A stretch of 64,000 nucleotides of DNA, from NCBI RefSeq assembly GCF_007097265.1, contig NZ_VJZP01000001.1:248001-312000 (forward strand), in the 5' to 3' direction. Shown one piece after another: positions 9,746 to 56,697 of this stretch (positions are counted from its first letter, which is position 1; every line of letters starts with the position of its first letter). The position numbers were made by a program, and so were the translations under genes. This stretch comes from Flavobacterium gawalongense. GTDB taxonomy: Bacteria > Bacteroidota > Bacteroidia > Flavobacteriales > Flavobacteriaceae. The notes below the pieces were generated by a model. It was not told the origin of the DNA. It did no database searches and saw only the letters and a list, made by a program, of their open reading frames with translations.

Positions 9746-9789
9746 ATTCCCCTCTTGAGAGTCCCGAGGCTTCGGGATAGAGCTGTGTT
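9746..9789 (+). repeat. Dispersed palindromic repeat, type II copy 1
   Basis: Reads ATTCCCCTCTTGAGAG, then the 16-bp palindrome TCCCGAGGCTTCGGGA (9762-9777), then TAGAGCTGTGTTTT. The type I form of the same repeat (for example 10155-10190) has GGGC in place of the palindrome. Confidence 0.75.
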
Positions 9790-10160
9790 TTATCATAACA
9801 CCTTTAGAACTTTAGAACATCCTATATAAAGACAAAATCATTCAATTTACCTATACGCATTCCCCTCTTGAGAGCTACCGTCTGGACACAAATATTCAGA
9901 CGAAATTTTAGCCACGAATTTCACTAATTTTCACGAATTAATTAGAGTAAATTAGTGAAATTCGTGGCTGTCTTTTTTATAATATCATAAAATCTCTGCA
10001 AATCTTTTTAATCTGTGTCCTATTTTAAACTTGTGTCCAGACGGTAGCTCTTGAGAGTCCCGAGGCTTCGGGATAGAGGTGTGTTTTATCATAACACCTT
10101 TAGAACTTTAGAACATCCTATATAAAGACAAAATCATTCAATTTACCTATACGCATTCCC
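9752..10160 (+). repeat. 113-bp tandem duplication split by a MITE-like insertion
   Basis: Unit 1 is 9752-9864 and unit 2 is 10048-10160; each begins CTCTTGAGAGTCCCGAGG and ends TACGCATTCCC. They differ at one base seen by eye (GATAGAGCTG versus GATAGAGGTG). A third CTCTTGAGAG starts at 10161. The 173-bp element at 9875-10047 sits at the unit junction. Confidence 0.8.
9875..10047. mobile_element. 173-bp MITE-like element with 17-bp perfect terminal inverted repeats
   Basis: The ends are CTACCGTCTGGACACAA (9875-9891) and its exact reverse complement (10031-10047). The 10 bp CTCTTGAGAG occurs directly on both sides (9865-9874 and 10048-10057), consistent with a target-site duplication. Inside is a 21-bp-arm hairpin beginning AGCCACGAATTTCACTAA (9910-9930 / 9949-9969). 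No coding frame fits in it, so a transposase would have to act in trans. Confidence 0.75.
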
Positions 10161-10190
10161 CTCTTGAGAGGGGCTAGGGGTGTGTTTTTA
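10155..10190 (+). repeat. Dispersed palindromic repeat, type I copy (left end of the DUF559 cassette)
   Basis: Contains the palindrome CCCCTCTTGAGAGGGG followed by CTAGGGGTGTGTTTTT. If translated from an upstream alternative start it would add 28 residues to the DUF559 protein, which is judged not real. Confidence 0.75.
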
Positions 10191-10247
10191 TATTCGTACA
10201 AAAAGATAGTATTAAAATGTTTTATCTTTATTAAAAAAAAGATTAGT

Positions 10248-10649
10248 ATGGCAAAAAGAAAAATCATACCCTACAATCCAAAGCTCACAGAATTGGCAAG
10301 GCGACTTAGAAACGATTCCACTGAAACAGAAATCTTTCTTTGGTTAAAATTGAAAGGAAAACAGCTATATGGCTATGATTTTCACCGCCAAAAACCGATT
10401 GATAATTATATTTTGGATTTTTTTTGTTATGAATTGATGTTAGCCATAGAAGTGGATGGGTATTCCCATGAGTTTCTGGAAGTGTATAATAAAGATATTT
10501 TGAAAGAAAATCGAATAAACGAATTAGGTATTACTATTTTGCGTTTCAGTGATGAACAGGTATTAAAAGATATGGAAAATGTGTTGCGTGCGATTGAATT
10601 TTATATTTGGGAGTATGAGAAAAAGACAGGGAATACAAACGAAGATTAA
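10248..10649 (+). CDS. DUF559 (PD-(D/E)xK, Vsr-like) endonuclease-domain protein
   Basis: 133 residues from the ATG at 10248 (MAKRKIIPYNPKLTELARRL); an upstream alternative start would read through the flanking repeat and is not used. The whole protein is one DUF559 domain: ETEIFLWLKLKGKQLYGYDF, then the nuclease-fold core QKPIDNYILDFFCYE with the acidic Asp of LDF, IEVDGYSHE with Glu-x-Asp, KENRINELGITILRFSDEQV and a C-terminal helix. The domain is related to Vsr mismatch endonucleases and very common in Bacteroidetes, but its function is not established. It is the only rightward gene between 9 and 17 kb of a leftward locus and is boxed in by inverted copies of a dispersed repeat, suggesting lateral or intragenomic movement. 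Confidence 0.85.
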   Translation: MAKRKIIPYNPKLTELARRLRNDSTETEIFLWLKLKGKQLYGYDFHRQKPIDNYILDFFCYELMLAIEVDGYSHEFLEVYNKDILKENRINELGITILRFSDEQVLKDMENVLRAIEFYIWEYEKKTGNTNED

Positions 10650-10651
10650 CC

Positions 10652-10690
10652 TCCTATCCGAAGCCTCGGGACTCTCAAGAGGGGAATGAG
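10652..10690 (-). repeat. Dispersed palindromic repeat, type II copy in inverse orientation (right end of the DUF559 cassette)
   Basis: On the minus strand it reads CATTCCCCTCTTGAGAG then TCCCGAGGCTTCGGA and TAGGAGG. The central palindrome (10657-10671) has lost one C compared with the other copies. Confidence 0.7.
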
Positions 10691-10695
10691 TATAG

Positions 10696-11011
10696 GTGGG
10701 AATCGTTCAAGGAAATTTATTGTATTATTTTTCAGTAGTTATTTTGAAAGTCTAAAAAGGAATTAAACTTTTAATTTCGCTTCTTATTTTTCTCAGGAGA
10801 TAGGGGAGTTCAGGAATTAAATTACATCGTTTTCTGTTTTTAAAAACTTTTCACAATACAAGATAACCCGTTTTGAAAGCTGAAACGAATAGTTTTTCCA
10901 GCACGATTCCCCTCTTGAGAGGGGCTAGGGGTGTGTTCTGATTTTATAAATTATAGTTTTTCAGTAACAGTTTTGAAAGCTAGAATATAAACCTATAATT
11001 CACCCTAATGT
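10696..11011. other. Gene-free spacer with degenerate short repeats
   Basis: No coding frame is supported. The motif TTTTGAAAG recurs near 10742, 10871 and 10971, twice together with TTTTTCAGTA, suggesting decayed duplications of repeat flanks. One dispersed repeat (10906-10936) lies inside. Confidence 0.5.
10906..10936 (+). repeat. Dispersed palindromic repeat, type I copy
   Basis: ATTCCCCTCTTGAGAG followed directly by GGGCTAGGGGTGTG; identical in this core to the copy at 10155-10190. Confidence 0.75.
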
Positions 11012-11053
11012 GTTCCTCTCTTGAGAGTCCCGAGGCTTCGGGATAGGGTGTGT
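11012..11053 (+). repeat. Dispersed palindromic repeat, type II copy next to the upxY stop
   Basis: GTTCCTCTCTTGAGAG, palindrome TCCCGAGGCTTCGGGA (11028-11043), TAGGGTGTG. It ends 2 bp from the stop codon of the upxY-like gene, so it lies at the 3' end of that message and may act as its terminator hairpin. Confidence 0.75.
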
Positions 11054-11055
11054 AT

Positions 11056-11520
11056 TTATTTGTATTTCATTTTCAAGACACATCCCAATGATTCCAAAAC
11101 AAGAACATAATGGGTGTTATTTACTTCTTGAACAATGGCCGTCTGCGTGGAAAACGGCCCTGAATCCAATGCTATCTTGTCACCAACCTGAAACGGAACT
11201 ACTGAAACTTCGCAACTATCGGGTCCATCCAGTCCTTTCTTAATGATATTAATTTCCTCATCCCTCACAATTGCAGGTTTCCCCAGCCAAAATAAATAAC
11301 GCACTACACCAACTGACTGAAACACTAAATTTCGGTCAGTGTCTGGTAATTGAACAAAAACATAAGAATTAAAAAGTGGCACTTCCACCTTTTTTTTTCG
11401 ATCAGACCATTGACGTACTACAGTAATCAAAGGACAGTAGCATTCTATTCCAAACTTTTTTAATTGTTCCGCTACTTTTTTCTCCCATTTAGGCTTTGTA
11501 TAAACGACATACCAATTCAT
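11056..11520 (-). CDS. UpxY/NusG-like transcription antiterminator of the polysaccharide locus
   Basis: 154 residues from the ATG at 11520 (MNWYVVYTKPKWEKKVAEQL); the longer frame to 11598 has no family similarity and is not used. It is a NusG N-terminal domain (WYVVYTKPKWE, CYCPLITVVRQW, PLFNSYVFVQL, VRYLFWLGKPAIV) followed by a short KOW-like part (FQVGDKIALDSGPF). In Bacteroides, UpxY proteins stop premature termination in the leader of their own capsule operon, so this gene probably controls part of the locus. Here it is separated from the downstream 9-0 kb block by the repeat patch and from the upstream ugd by a 296-bp palindromic element, and is bracketed by perfect 114-bp inverted repeats. 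Confidence 0.82.
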   Translation of the reverse strand: MNWYVVYTKPKWEKKVAEQLKKFGIECYCPLITVVRQWSDRKKKVEVPLFNSYVFVQLPDTDRNLVFQSVGVVRYLFWLGKPAIVRDEEINIIKKGLDGPDSCEVSVVPFQVGDKIALDSGPFSTQTAIVQEVNNTHYVLVLESLGCVLKMKYK

Positions 11521-11633
11521 CTTACGTGTTGTATTAAAATAAAAAGATGACCCTTTATTTATTTGTACTTTCTTTTGAGTATTGTTTATAAAAAACAATA
11601 ATGTACATGTAGATTCTTAAATCAATTATTATT

Positions 11634-20170: not shown

Positions 20171-20224
20171 TAATCGACTTATTTACTTAACAAACAACTA
20201 AAGGTTAAATGTTAGCAGAGGCGA

Positions 20225-20258
20225 ATTCCCCTCTTGAGAGGGGTTAGGGGTGTGTTTT
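20225..20258 (+). repeat. Dispersed palindromic repeat, type I copy outside the polysaccharide locus
   Basis: AATTCCCCTCTTGAGAGGGG then TTAGGGGTGTGTTTTT; same repeat as at 10155-10190 and 10906-10936, showing that the family is dispersed and not confined to the DUF559 neighbourhood. Confidence 0.75.
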
Positions 20259-20381
20259 TCTTTAAAATGCAAATATTTCATTTTGTTAATATGCTCTAAA
20301 GTATTTACAGTCGTTAAAAACAACAATAAAGTTTGAGTTCATTAGACTTAATATTAGTCTTTAAGTAAGTAACTCGAAAAA

Positions 20382-29450: not shown

Positions 29451-29594
29451 TAGCCCTGATTACTTCACTTAGCCTCTATTTTTCATAGGAGTTCAGTGAA
29501 CTTCGTTTGAAGCGGTATCCTTTTCTTGTCCTTCTGACGAAGGAAGAATGGCATGAAAAGATATAGCGAAAAGCAGGTGAAAAGTTCCTTTAAA
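29451..29594 (+). ncRNA. Structured repeat (candidate RNA), copy 3
   Basis: Begins TAGCCCTGAT, then after an insertion of about 50 bp containing GTTCAGTGAAC continues AGCGGTATCCTTTT, a hairpin region with CCTTC-TGAC-GAAGG, AAAAGATATAGCG, AAAAGCAGG and AGTTCC. The framework equals copies 1 and 2; the variable part is the hairpin and the insertion. It lies between carA and rplQ, on the strand opposite to both. Confidence 0.5.
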
Positions 29595-56451: not shown

Positions 56452-56697
56452 TAGTTTTAGTTTCGTGTTCTTTTTAAATTAAAATCAAAAATTTATCCAA
56501 AAGCAATTTAATGCTATTTTGTCATACTAAAACTAAAAAGACATTTTAAATTGTGATGCCTAGCCCAGATGGAAACGGCATCCTTTTTATCTCGTTTTTT
56601 TAACGAGATAAAAAGATATAGTGGACAGCTGGAATTAGCTCCTAAAAAAAATTAGAAACTGAAACAAGTTCAGTTTGAAAAATAGTAATTTTACAAA
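56452..56697. other. Divergent spacer between the rhomboid gene and rarA
   Basis: Carries structured repeat copy 2; otherwise no gene or strong promoter is seen. Confidence 0.5.
56561..56650 (+). ncRNA. Structured repeat (candidate RNA), copy 2
   Basis: The cleanest copy: TAGCCCAGATGGAAACGGCA, TCC, a 13-bp stem TTTTTATCTCGTT / AACGAGATAAAAA (56584-56596 / 56602-56614) with loop TTTTT, then AGATATAGTGGACAGCTGG, AATTAGCTCC and an A-run. Compared with copies 1 and 3, the flanks are conserved while the hairpin sequence is completely different, which points to selection on structure. Confidence 0.55.

Follow-up and report, generated by a model that had tools for sequence, protein, structure and literature searches.

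The text of PMC3733652 available to us groups REPs into a GTAG class, which is linked to RAYT enzymes, and a CGTC class without a dedicated transposase, and reports REPs inside repair genes. It also covers the Rickettsia palindromic elements, which resemble the repeats described here in standing in frame within protein genes, but for which this text names no enzyme, whereas the DUF559 repeats sit with a nuclease gene. For DUF559 itself, the accessible parts of three papers are relevant: a Caulobacter DUF559 protein, predicted to be a Vsr-like endonuclease, has been tied to DNA damage (PMC12907096), a DUF559 gene has been placed in the EDxHD homing endonuclease family (PMC9403480), and DUF559-transposase segments occur among recombination hotspots of Legionella (PMC12308824). 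The accessible text of the literature searched holds no description of DUF559 with REP ends; an earlier one in subscription papers or preprints is possible. From sequence comparison we consider it probable, at roughly 0.7, that the DUF559 gene, together with the inverted REP-like end on either side, constitutes one small mobile element whose enzyme is a PD-(D/E)XK nuclease similar to Vsr and I-Bth0305I. By analogy, the best reading of its mode of action is that it would work like RAYT/REPIN pairs and homing endonucleases, without necessarily belonging to either.

The window, i.e. the whole stretch of 64,000 nucleotides from Flavobacterium gawalongense analysed here, contains at 10248..10649 (+ strand) a gene for a DUF559 nuclease of 133 amino acids (PF04480, E 2.9e-28), starting with the ATG at 10248 and ending with the stop codon at 10647-10649. 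Below the Pfam cut-off, the protein also matches MTES_1575 and DUF2726. The left arm CCTATACGCATTCCCCTCTTGAGAG (10146-10170) and the right arm, which reads CCTATACTCATTCCCCTCTTGAGAG in reverse (10672-10696), form an inverted repeat of 25 bp with one mismatch; the original prediction had the mismatch right and the length as 24 bp. It also spoke of a single DUF559 gene, which is true near this locus and not for the genome, where three DUF559 places each adjoin C/G-rich inverted hairpins with sequences differing among the places. The left REP-like end ATTCCCCTCTTGAGAGGGGCTAGGGGTGTGTT (10155..10186, + strand), overlapping the arm at 10146-10170, consists of a hairpin and a G-rich tail directed toward the gene. 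The right end (10650..10687, - strand) is inverted and degenerate and overlaps the arm at 10672-10696; its inner GGGG half is swapped for another small palindrome, TCCCGAGGCTTCGG, and it therefore does not fold as a CCCCTC hairpin. Folding of three single window hairpins was weakly better or no better than that of shuffled sequences (z -2.0, -0.7 and 0.1), too weak to serve as thermodynamic proof. Left and right arms differ mostly by C/T changes, which is uninformative on nicking at T-G mismatches because C/T-restricted arms can differ in no other way.

Solo copies of the repeat are present in the window and beyond. With up to 3 mismatches, ATTCCCCTCTTGAGAG occurs 7 times in the window, compared with a mean of 0.54 and a maximum of 2 in 100 shuffles, and a 15-base core with at most 1 mismatch has 14 copies in the genome, the reversed-pattern control none. 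All five solo copies of the original prediction (9746, 9858, 10906, 11012 and 20225) were recovered on the + strand, one of them shifted by one base to 9859. The copies at 9746..9789 and 11012..11054 are variants with an inner palindrome, the latter with 2 mismatches and adjoining the stop of a NusG-family gene (11056-11598, - strand, PF02357). The copy at 10906..10937 matches the left end exactly over 32 bp, while that at 9859..10080 is split by a foreign insert (9875-10047) and resumes at 10048. This insert of 173 bp has inverted ends CTACCGTCTGGACACAA and a 10-bp duplication CTCTTGAGAG. The copy at 20225..20256 lies within a MITE of about 200 bp (20174..20377, no strand assigned) with inverted ends TCGACTTATTTAC.../...GTAAGTAACTCGA and an 8-bp duplication AAAACTAA, which is missing at the corresponding place of the relative G290. 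Hence the predicted dispersal of solo copies holds, with the qualification that some, including 20225, sit in a MITE; the solo copies have mixed origins.

The MITEs raise the possibility that the hairpin is just a part of MITEs moved by other transposases, with DUF559 as one cargo among others. A context of about 200 bp is common to six solo copies of the window's genome (L001 in part, L002, L003, L009, which is the window copy at 20225, L011 and L012); inverted ends and a target duplication were established for the window copy among these six MITE-like contexts. Genome G033, with 153 CCCCTC hairpins genome-wide, also has some copies (among loci L170-L186) that lie at the centre of a context with inverted ends, TTATCACGTTTGA...TTAAACGTGATAA. 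However, this carrier is a different one from that in the window's genome, many G033 copies lie in unrelated sequence, the 31 copies examined have only a core of about 31 bp in common while their surroundings vary, and the DUF559 elements inspected had no visible MITE ends around them. We regard this explanation as very improbable.

To what extent DUF559 genes and such hairpins belong together was examined with hairpins of this class, beyond the window's own 24-bp end. Around DUF559 domains, pyrimidine-5′-arm hairpins reached a density of 4.30 per kb within 200 bp and 0.48 per kb at 200-400 bp (112 loci), and fell to 0.00-0.14 per kb in ten bins more than 1 kb away (112 loci, two sources); purine-arm control hairpins stayed at or below 0.04 per kb (112 loci). 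In a family survey of 100 genomes, one per genus, a hairpin was found within 300 bp on either side of 40 of the 56 DUF559 matches and on both sides of 25, leaving 16 without a hairpin by the definition used. In a second set of genome contigs, comprising the best 80 of 534 confirmed loci as picked by likeness to three family queries, the corresponding values were 72/81 and 44/81. The 56 survey, 81 genome-contig and 139 unique matches are domain matches, L031 and L205 each being doubled as fragments. Sham windows had a hairpin within 300 bp in 6 of 276 cases. Even within 600 bp, none was found at 20 hand-picked Y1-transposase loci, 19 of which came from genomes with at least 5 hairpins, nor at any of the 22 Vsr loci, i.e. 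every Vsr from the family search. The unit is thus absent from both control gene families, and DUF559 genes are flanked beyond chance, so that the first of the two outcomes named in the original prediction as refuting the link did not occur. That the association reflects chance or the base composition of C-rich hairpins is contradicted by the shuffle, reversed-pattern, purine-arm, sham-window, Y1 and Vsr controls, with no observation in its favour, and can practically be dismissed.

The genome-contig loci (best 80 of 534) span many phyla, and since they were picked by similarity to the family queries, phylum frequencies are no estimates. In this set together with the survey, hairpins on both sides were seen in Bacteroidota, Pseudomonadota, Cyanobacteriota, Melainabacteria, Nitrospirota, Thermodesulfobacteriota, Bacillota, Sumerlaeota and Nomurabacteria. 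Among the best 80 of 534, loci from Ignavibacteriota, Spirochaetota and Moranbacteria had hairpins on one side at most, Chloroflexota on one side in 3 of 6 loci and on both sides in none, and the one Planctomycetota locus on neither side.

Genome-wide counts gave a similar picture. The pattern CCCCTC-N2-14-GAGGGG, in a count that takes in the element's own ends, occurred 377 times in the 35 family genomes with a strong DUF559 match (E below 1e-20) and 45 times in the 65 without (Mann-Whitney U test, p 1.8e-8; reversed pattern, p 0.42). At least 5 hairpins were present in 13 of the 35 genomes with DUF559 and in 0 of the 65 without, and all 13 genomes with at least 5 CCCCTC hairpins among the 100 have a full DUF559 gene, so that the second refuting outcome of the original prediction, repeat-rich genomes lacking DUF559 altogether, did not occur either. 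The per-genome tables for the hairpin, DUF559 and Y1 statistics were transcribed by hand. Y1 transposases were detected in 40 of the 100 family genomes and co-occur with DUF559 by genome (odds ratio 6.7, p 3e-5).

The hairpins might also be conventional REPs whose movement depends on a RAYT or some other Y1 transposase, with DUF559 merely hitch-hiking between them. The co-occurrence of both genes would fit, as would the Y1 match in 11 of the 13 hairpin-rich genomes, which makes a helper role for Y1 possible. On the other hand, the hand-picked Y1 loci had no hairpin nearby, and the Y1 effect on the hairpin count was insignificant both without (p 0.79) and with DUF559 (p 0.20), whereas the DUF559 effect was significant with Y1 (p 9e-5) as well as without (p 3e-4, partly explained by the element's own ends). 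We consider such hitch-hiking improbable.

Within the genus Flavobacterium, DUF559 matches with an E value of 1e-20 or better were present in 33 of 198 genomes, the window's own included. Thirteen other genomes of the genus possess DUF559 genes that are 73-85% identical to that of the window, and the window's repeat type, with small loop changes, was found on both sides of 10 of them, on one side of 2 and at none of the sides of 1. By their flanking proteins, the 14 loci of this subtype, window included, fall into 9 clusters, one of which links L274 to L280/L282 by a 29% match alone. L276 and L277 have the same NusG context as the window, while L279 lies between the porphobilinogen deaminase and HemD genes and L281 has the same flanks. 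Other DUF559 subtypes of the genus have repeat types of their own, and four of the 34 genus loci (L275, L296, L298 and L299) have no repeat. For 29 of these loci (the four without repeat and one with a short domain were left out), nuclease identity was correlated with repeat similarity (Mantel r 0.889, 0 of 5000 permutations). Loci that share their descent at a single site, uvrA, contribute to this correlation, and covariation of repeat and nuclease could arise merely from travelling together. Taken together, gene and inverted hairpins behave in these comparisons as a recurring unit at different places, patchy among relatives and with a repeat type that follows the nuclease type. This bears out the guess that a small mobile element is involved. 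The expectation of empty sites in relatives was confirmed at leuS and uvrA (see below) but not at the window locus, where G290, lacking the element, has a 507-bp spacer that fails to align.

DUF559 domains also stand in long open frames, and Pfam confirmed fusions in 10 proteins: a UvrD-like helicase of the window's genome (L015), methionine synthase (metH, L029), RecG (L044), leucyl-tRNA synthetase (leuS, L027), histidinol dehydrogenase (C-terminal, L020), HemD (N-terminal, L022), HydF (L077), HsdR (L094), a radical SAM protein (N-terminal, L112) and an M14 peptidase (L102). In these frames the hairpins are translated linkers, e.g. SPLTPKGG and PSPLGRVGEG, peptides that are explained by the element ends. 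An intron or intein host was rejected for the loci tested: Pfam detected no intein domain in the 10 fusion proteins, and at Rfam gathering scores no intron family was found in the window, L015, L027, L029, L044, L127, L129 and L235. A tree was calculated from 133 of the 139 matches, selected by length and stops; it has few columns and many open forks. By motif, 17 of its rows belong to leuS, 4 to metH, 3 to hemD and 2 to recG, with one each of LeuS, MetH and RecG confirmed by Pfam. In this tree the insert in the UvrD-like helicase of the window's genome branches among the leuS inserts, at starred support, suggesting that an element moved between unrelated genes.

For leuS, occupied and empty alleles could be compared within the genus of G050, where the locus was obtained from 12 of 14 genomes; for recG, the genus of G061 offered a single genome for such a comparison. 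Nine of them have no DUF559 and 31-50 residues between NWIGRSxGA and VFTTRPDT; the three with DUF559 have 164, 202 and 223 residues there, stop-free and of two insert types. Two of the DUF559-free loops (L128 and L132) hold short inserts, SSNVTLSAVEG and LDPERSRSD, which look like translations of other repeats. The leuS loop may be a general landing place.

A second mode of insertion was observed at gene ends. The second element of the window's genome (L235) comes after the uvrA stop codon (NCBIfam UvrA model, E 3e-219 over 419 residues). Of 10 genomes compared at this site, four (G000, G119, G141 and G262) have the element, G229 has the repeat alone, and five (G290, G222, G182, G122 and G115) have neither. 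Past the element, a displaced uvrA tail running into native-like downstream sequence was present in G000, G119 and G262, while G141 retained only a short remnant of the tail. In G000 and G119, the uvrA end before the element differs from the displaced tail. G262 carries two units in series at uvrA, the first without a gene, and elsewhere five more inverted repeat pairs spaced too tightly for a gene between them. In our reading of these arrangements, the element supplies or leaves behind a functional end of the gene and shoves the old one aside, repeatedly at uvrA. Next to the window element, a displaced nusG tail was considered and rejected, as no candidate scored above the shuffle range. Flavo-1 RNA (RF01705) matches were found at 29495-29584 and 56558-56639 of the window and at 3174-3251 of L235, the last directly downstream of the uvrA element.

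In 53 loci, DUF559 lies between direct repeats, compared with 2 of 136 mismatched pairs; the comparison passed over loci with short flanks, and the denominator of the Fisher test was 139. Mostly these are repeat units, but some are host sequence: the uvrA tail at L235, the C-terminus of an ABC-2 permease at L061 and the first part of DUF6090 genes (Pfam) at L192. Thus long host duplications flank DUF559 elements at uvrA and other loci, while a short target duplication was not noticed in an unsystematic look at the DUF559 elements. An integron-like cassette array at L192 was rejected, because its evenly spaced units proved to be the beginnings of DUF6090 paralogues arranged in tandem (Pfam). 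By sequence likeness, DUF559 at L229, L231 and L195 likewise lies beside a duplicated DUF6090-like gene start, which together with L192 makes four genera.

The ends also show a defined arrangement. The arms were inverted in 36 of the 46 loci with tails readable on both sides (p 8e-5; stems of at least 6, 61 of 139 matches having no readable tail on either side). Tails mostly pointed inward at stand-alone genes (17 vs 6) and outward in long-frame cases (10 vs 3; p 0.005), where a frame of at least 190 amino acids was counted as in frame, a group that also takes in a few small extensions other than host fusions. REPIN-like pairs of the order tail-hairpin-spacer-hairpin-tail occur alone at L190 and beside the gene at L030, L032, L045 and L092, the last with the layout repeat-gene-repeat-gene-repeat.

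The recurrence of sites such as the leuS loop, metH, recG, hemD and the uvrA end, together with a homing endonuclease among the relatives of the protein (I-Bth0305I, see below), would also fit a site-specific selfish nuclease and nothing else, the hairpins being terminators or linkers without a role in movement. This account overlaps with the preferred one, so that the odds of the two are non-exclusive. In its narrow form we regard it as unlikely, as the hairpins persist inside open frames, which would be senseless for a terminator, make solo copies and pairs and track the nuclease type.

A structure model of the window protein (pLDDT 92) had nucleases of the PD-(D/E)XK type as its best fold matches, namely the Neisseria endonuclease-like protein 3hrl and the homing endonuclease I-Bth0305I (3r3p, E 9e-4); Vsr was a weak match (E 0.44). 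Profile comparisons of DUF559 agreed (3hrl, 3.9e-35; 3r3p, 1.7e-6). Residues E28, Q48, D57, E68 and R99 are among those common to all 38 of 38 aligned rows. Mitochondrial ribosome chains of Toxoplasma and Tetrahymena were among the weaker fold matches.

Compared with REPtrons (RAYT plus GTAG REPs/REPINs) as described in the accessible text of PMC3733652, the DUF559 loci are similar in having hairpins of 20-40 bp, inverted pairs, a repeat-flanked enzyme gene, solo copies and copies within genes. The inverted REP flanks, solo copies and pairs expected of a RAYT locus were found, though some loci lack them, and the original comparison with REPs and RAYTs thus stands. The differences lie in the enzyme, a putative PD-(D/E)XK nuclease in place of an IS200/IS605-like HUH tyrosine transposase (no Y1/HUH transposase match was obtained for the window protein), in the pyrimidine-arm stems, which replace the GTAG tag (ATTCCCCTCTTGAGAGGGGCTAGGGGTGTGTT, the window unit and the only one checked, has no GTAG), and in the presence of the DUF559 gene itself in frame within proteins. 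Most DUF559 hairpins, that of the window included, also differ from CGTC REPs in lacking CGTC. However, 8 loci of one DUF559 clade carry CGTC-stem-CCA ends, 15 of them no more than 400 bp from DUF559 and 0 in the 392 kb beyond, with 0, 0 and 1 nearby occurrences for three control tags; the search used stems of at least 7 and loops of 3-11, the published REP criterion being a stem of 8-9 bp. DUF559 may therefore serve part of the CGTC class, identity of these ends with the CGTC REPs of PMC3733652, as far as its accessible text describes them, being a lead only.

I-Bth0305I is the closest characterised relative found in fold and sequence, and it shares with the DUF559 elements the insertion at conserved gene sites; the latter differ by their hairpin ends, and those DUF559 inserts that were tested had neither an intein domain nor an Rfam intron around them. 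As for homing endonucleases, a nuclease of homing fold was thus found (3r3p), and occupied and empty alleles coexist (leuS, 3 with and 9 without; uvrA, 4 with and 5 without element or repeat), while the in-gene copies tested have no intron or intein host. Free-standing homing genes need no such host. With Vsr and the Caulobacter VsrA, which has a DUF559 domain according to the accessible text of PMC12907096, the protein shares the nuclease superfamily, but the canonical Vsr genes of the family survey (0/22) are without such hairpins.

Based on these comparisons, we propose that the nuclease would cut or nick chosen conserved sites, or hairpins, and that repair would copy the element into the break in the manner of a homing endonuclease. 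The hairpin ends are predicted to be what the nuclease recognises, and when copied alone they would yield solo REPs and REPIN-like pairs as by-products. The unit occupies in-frame positions within conserved genes or the ends of genes. Such elements might last in essential genes since any copy that neither keeps the reading frame open nor leaves the gene with a functional end would be lost. We infer that the nuclease itself drives movement and spreads the repeats. The in-frame insertions, the gene-end insertions and the spread over phyla are additions to the original prediction. On a broader view, to which we would give an even chance, DUF559 proteins would supply the dedicated enzymes that a large orphan class of REP-like repeats in many phyla has been missing: a nuclease-only element without transposase, integrase or splicing, which can live as an extra in-frame domain in essential enzymes (LeuS, MetH and RecG, for example) and gives rise to REPs and REPINs from its hairpin ends.

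The DUF559 nuclease thus becomes a candidate for the enzyme that scattered bacterial repeats have so far lacked, and the spread of REP-like repeats becomes a directly testable question. A nuclease gene that settles within essential proteins, where no intein or intron was found, would represent a little-noticed kind of mobile DNA, which may explain the origin of many of the repeats scattered through bacterial genomes.
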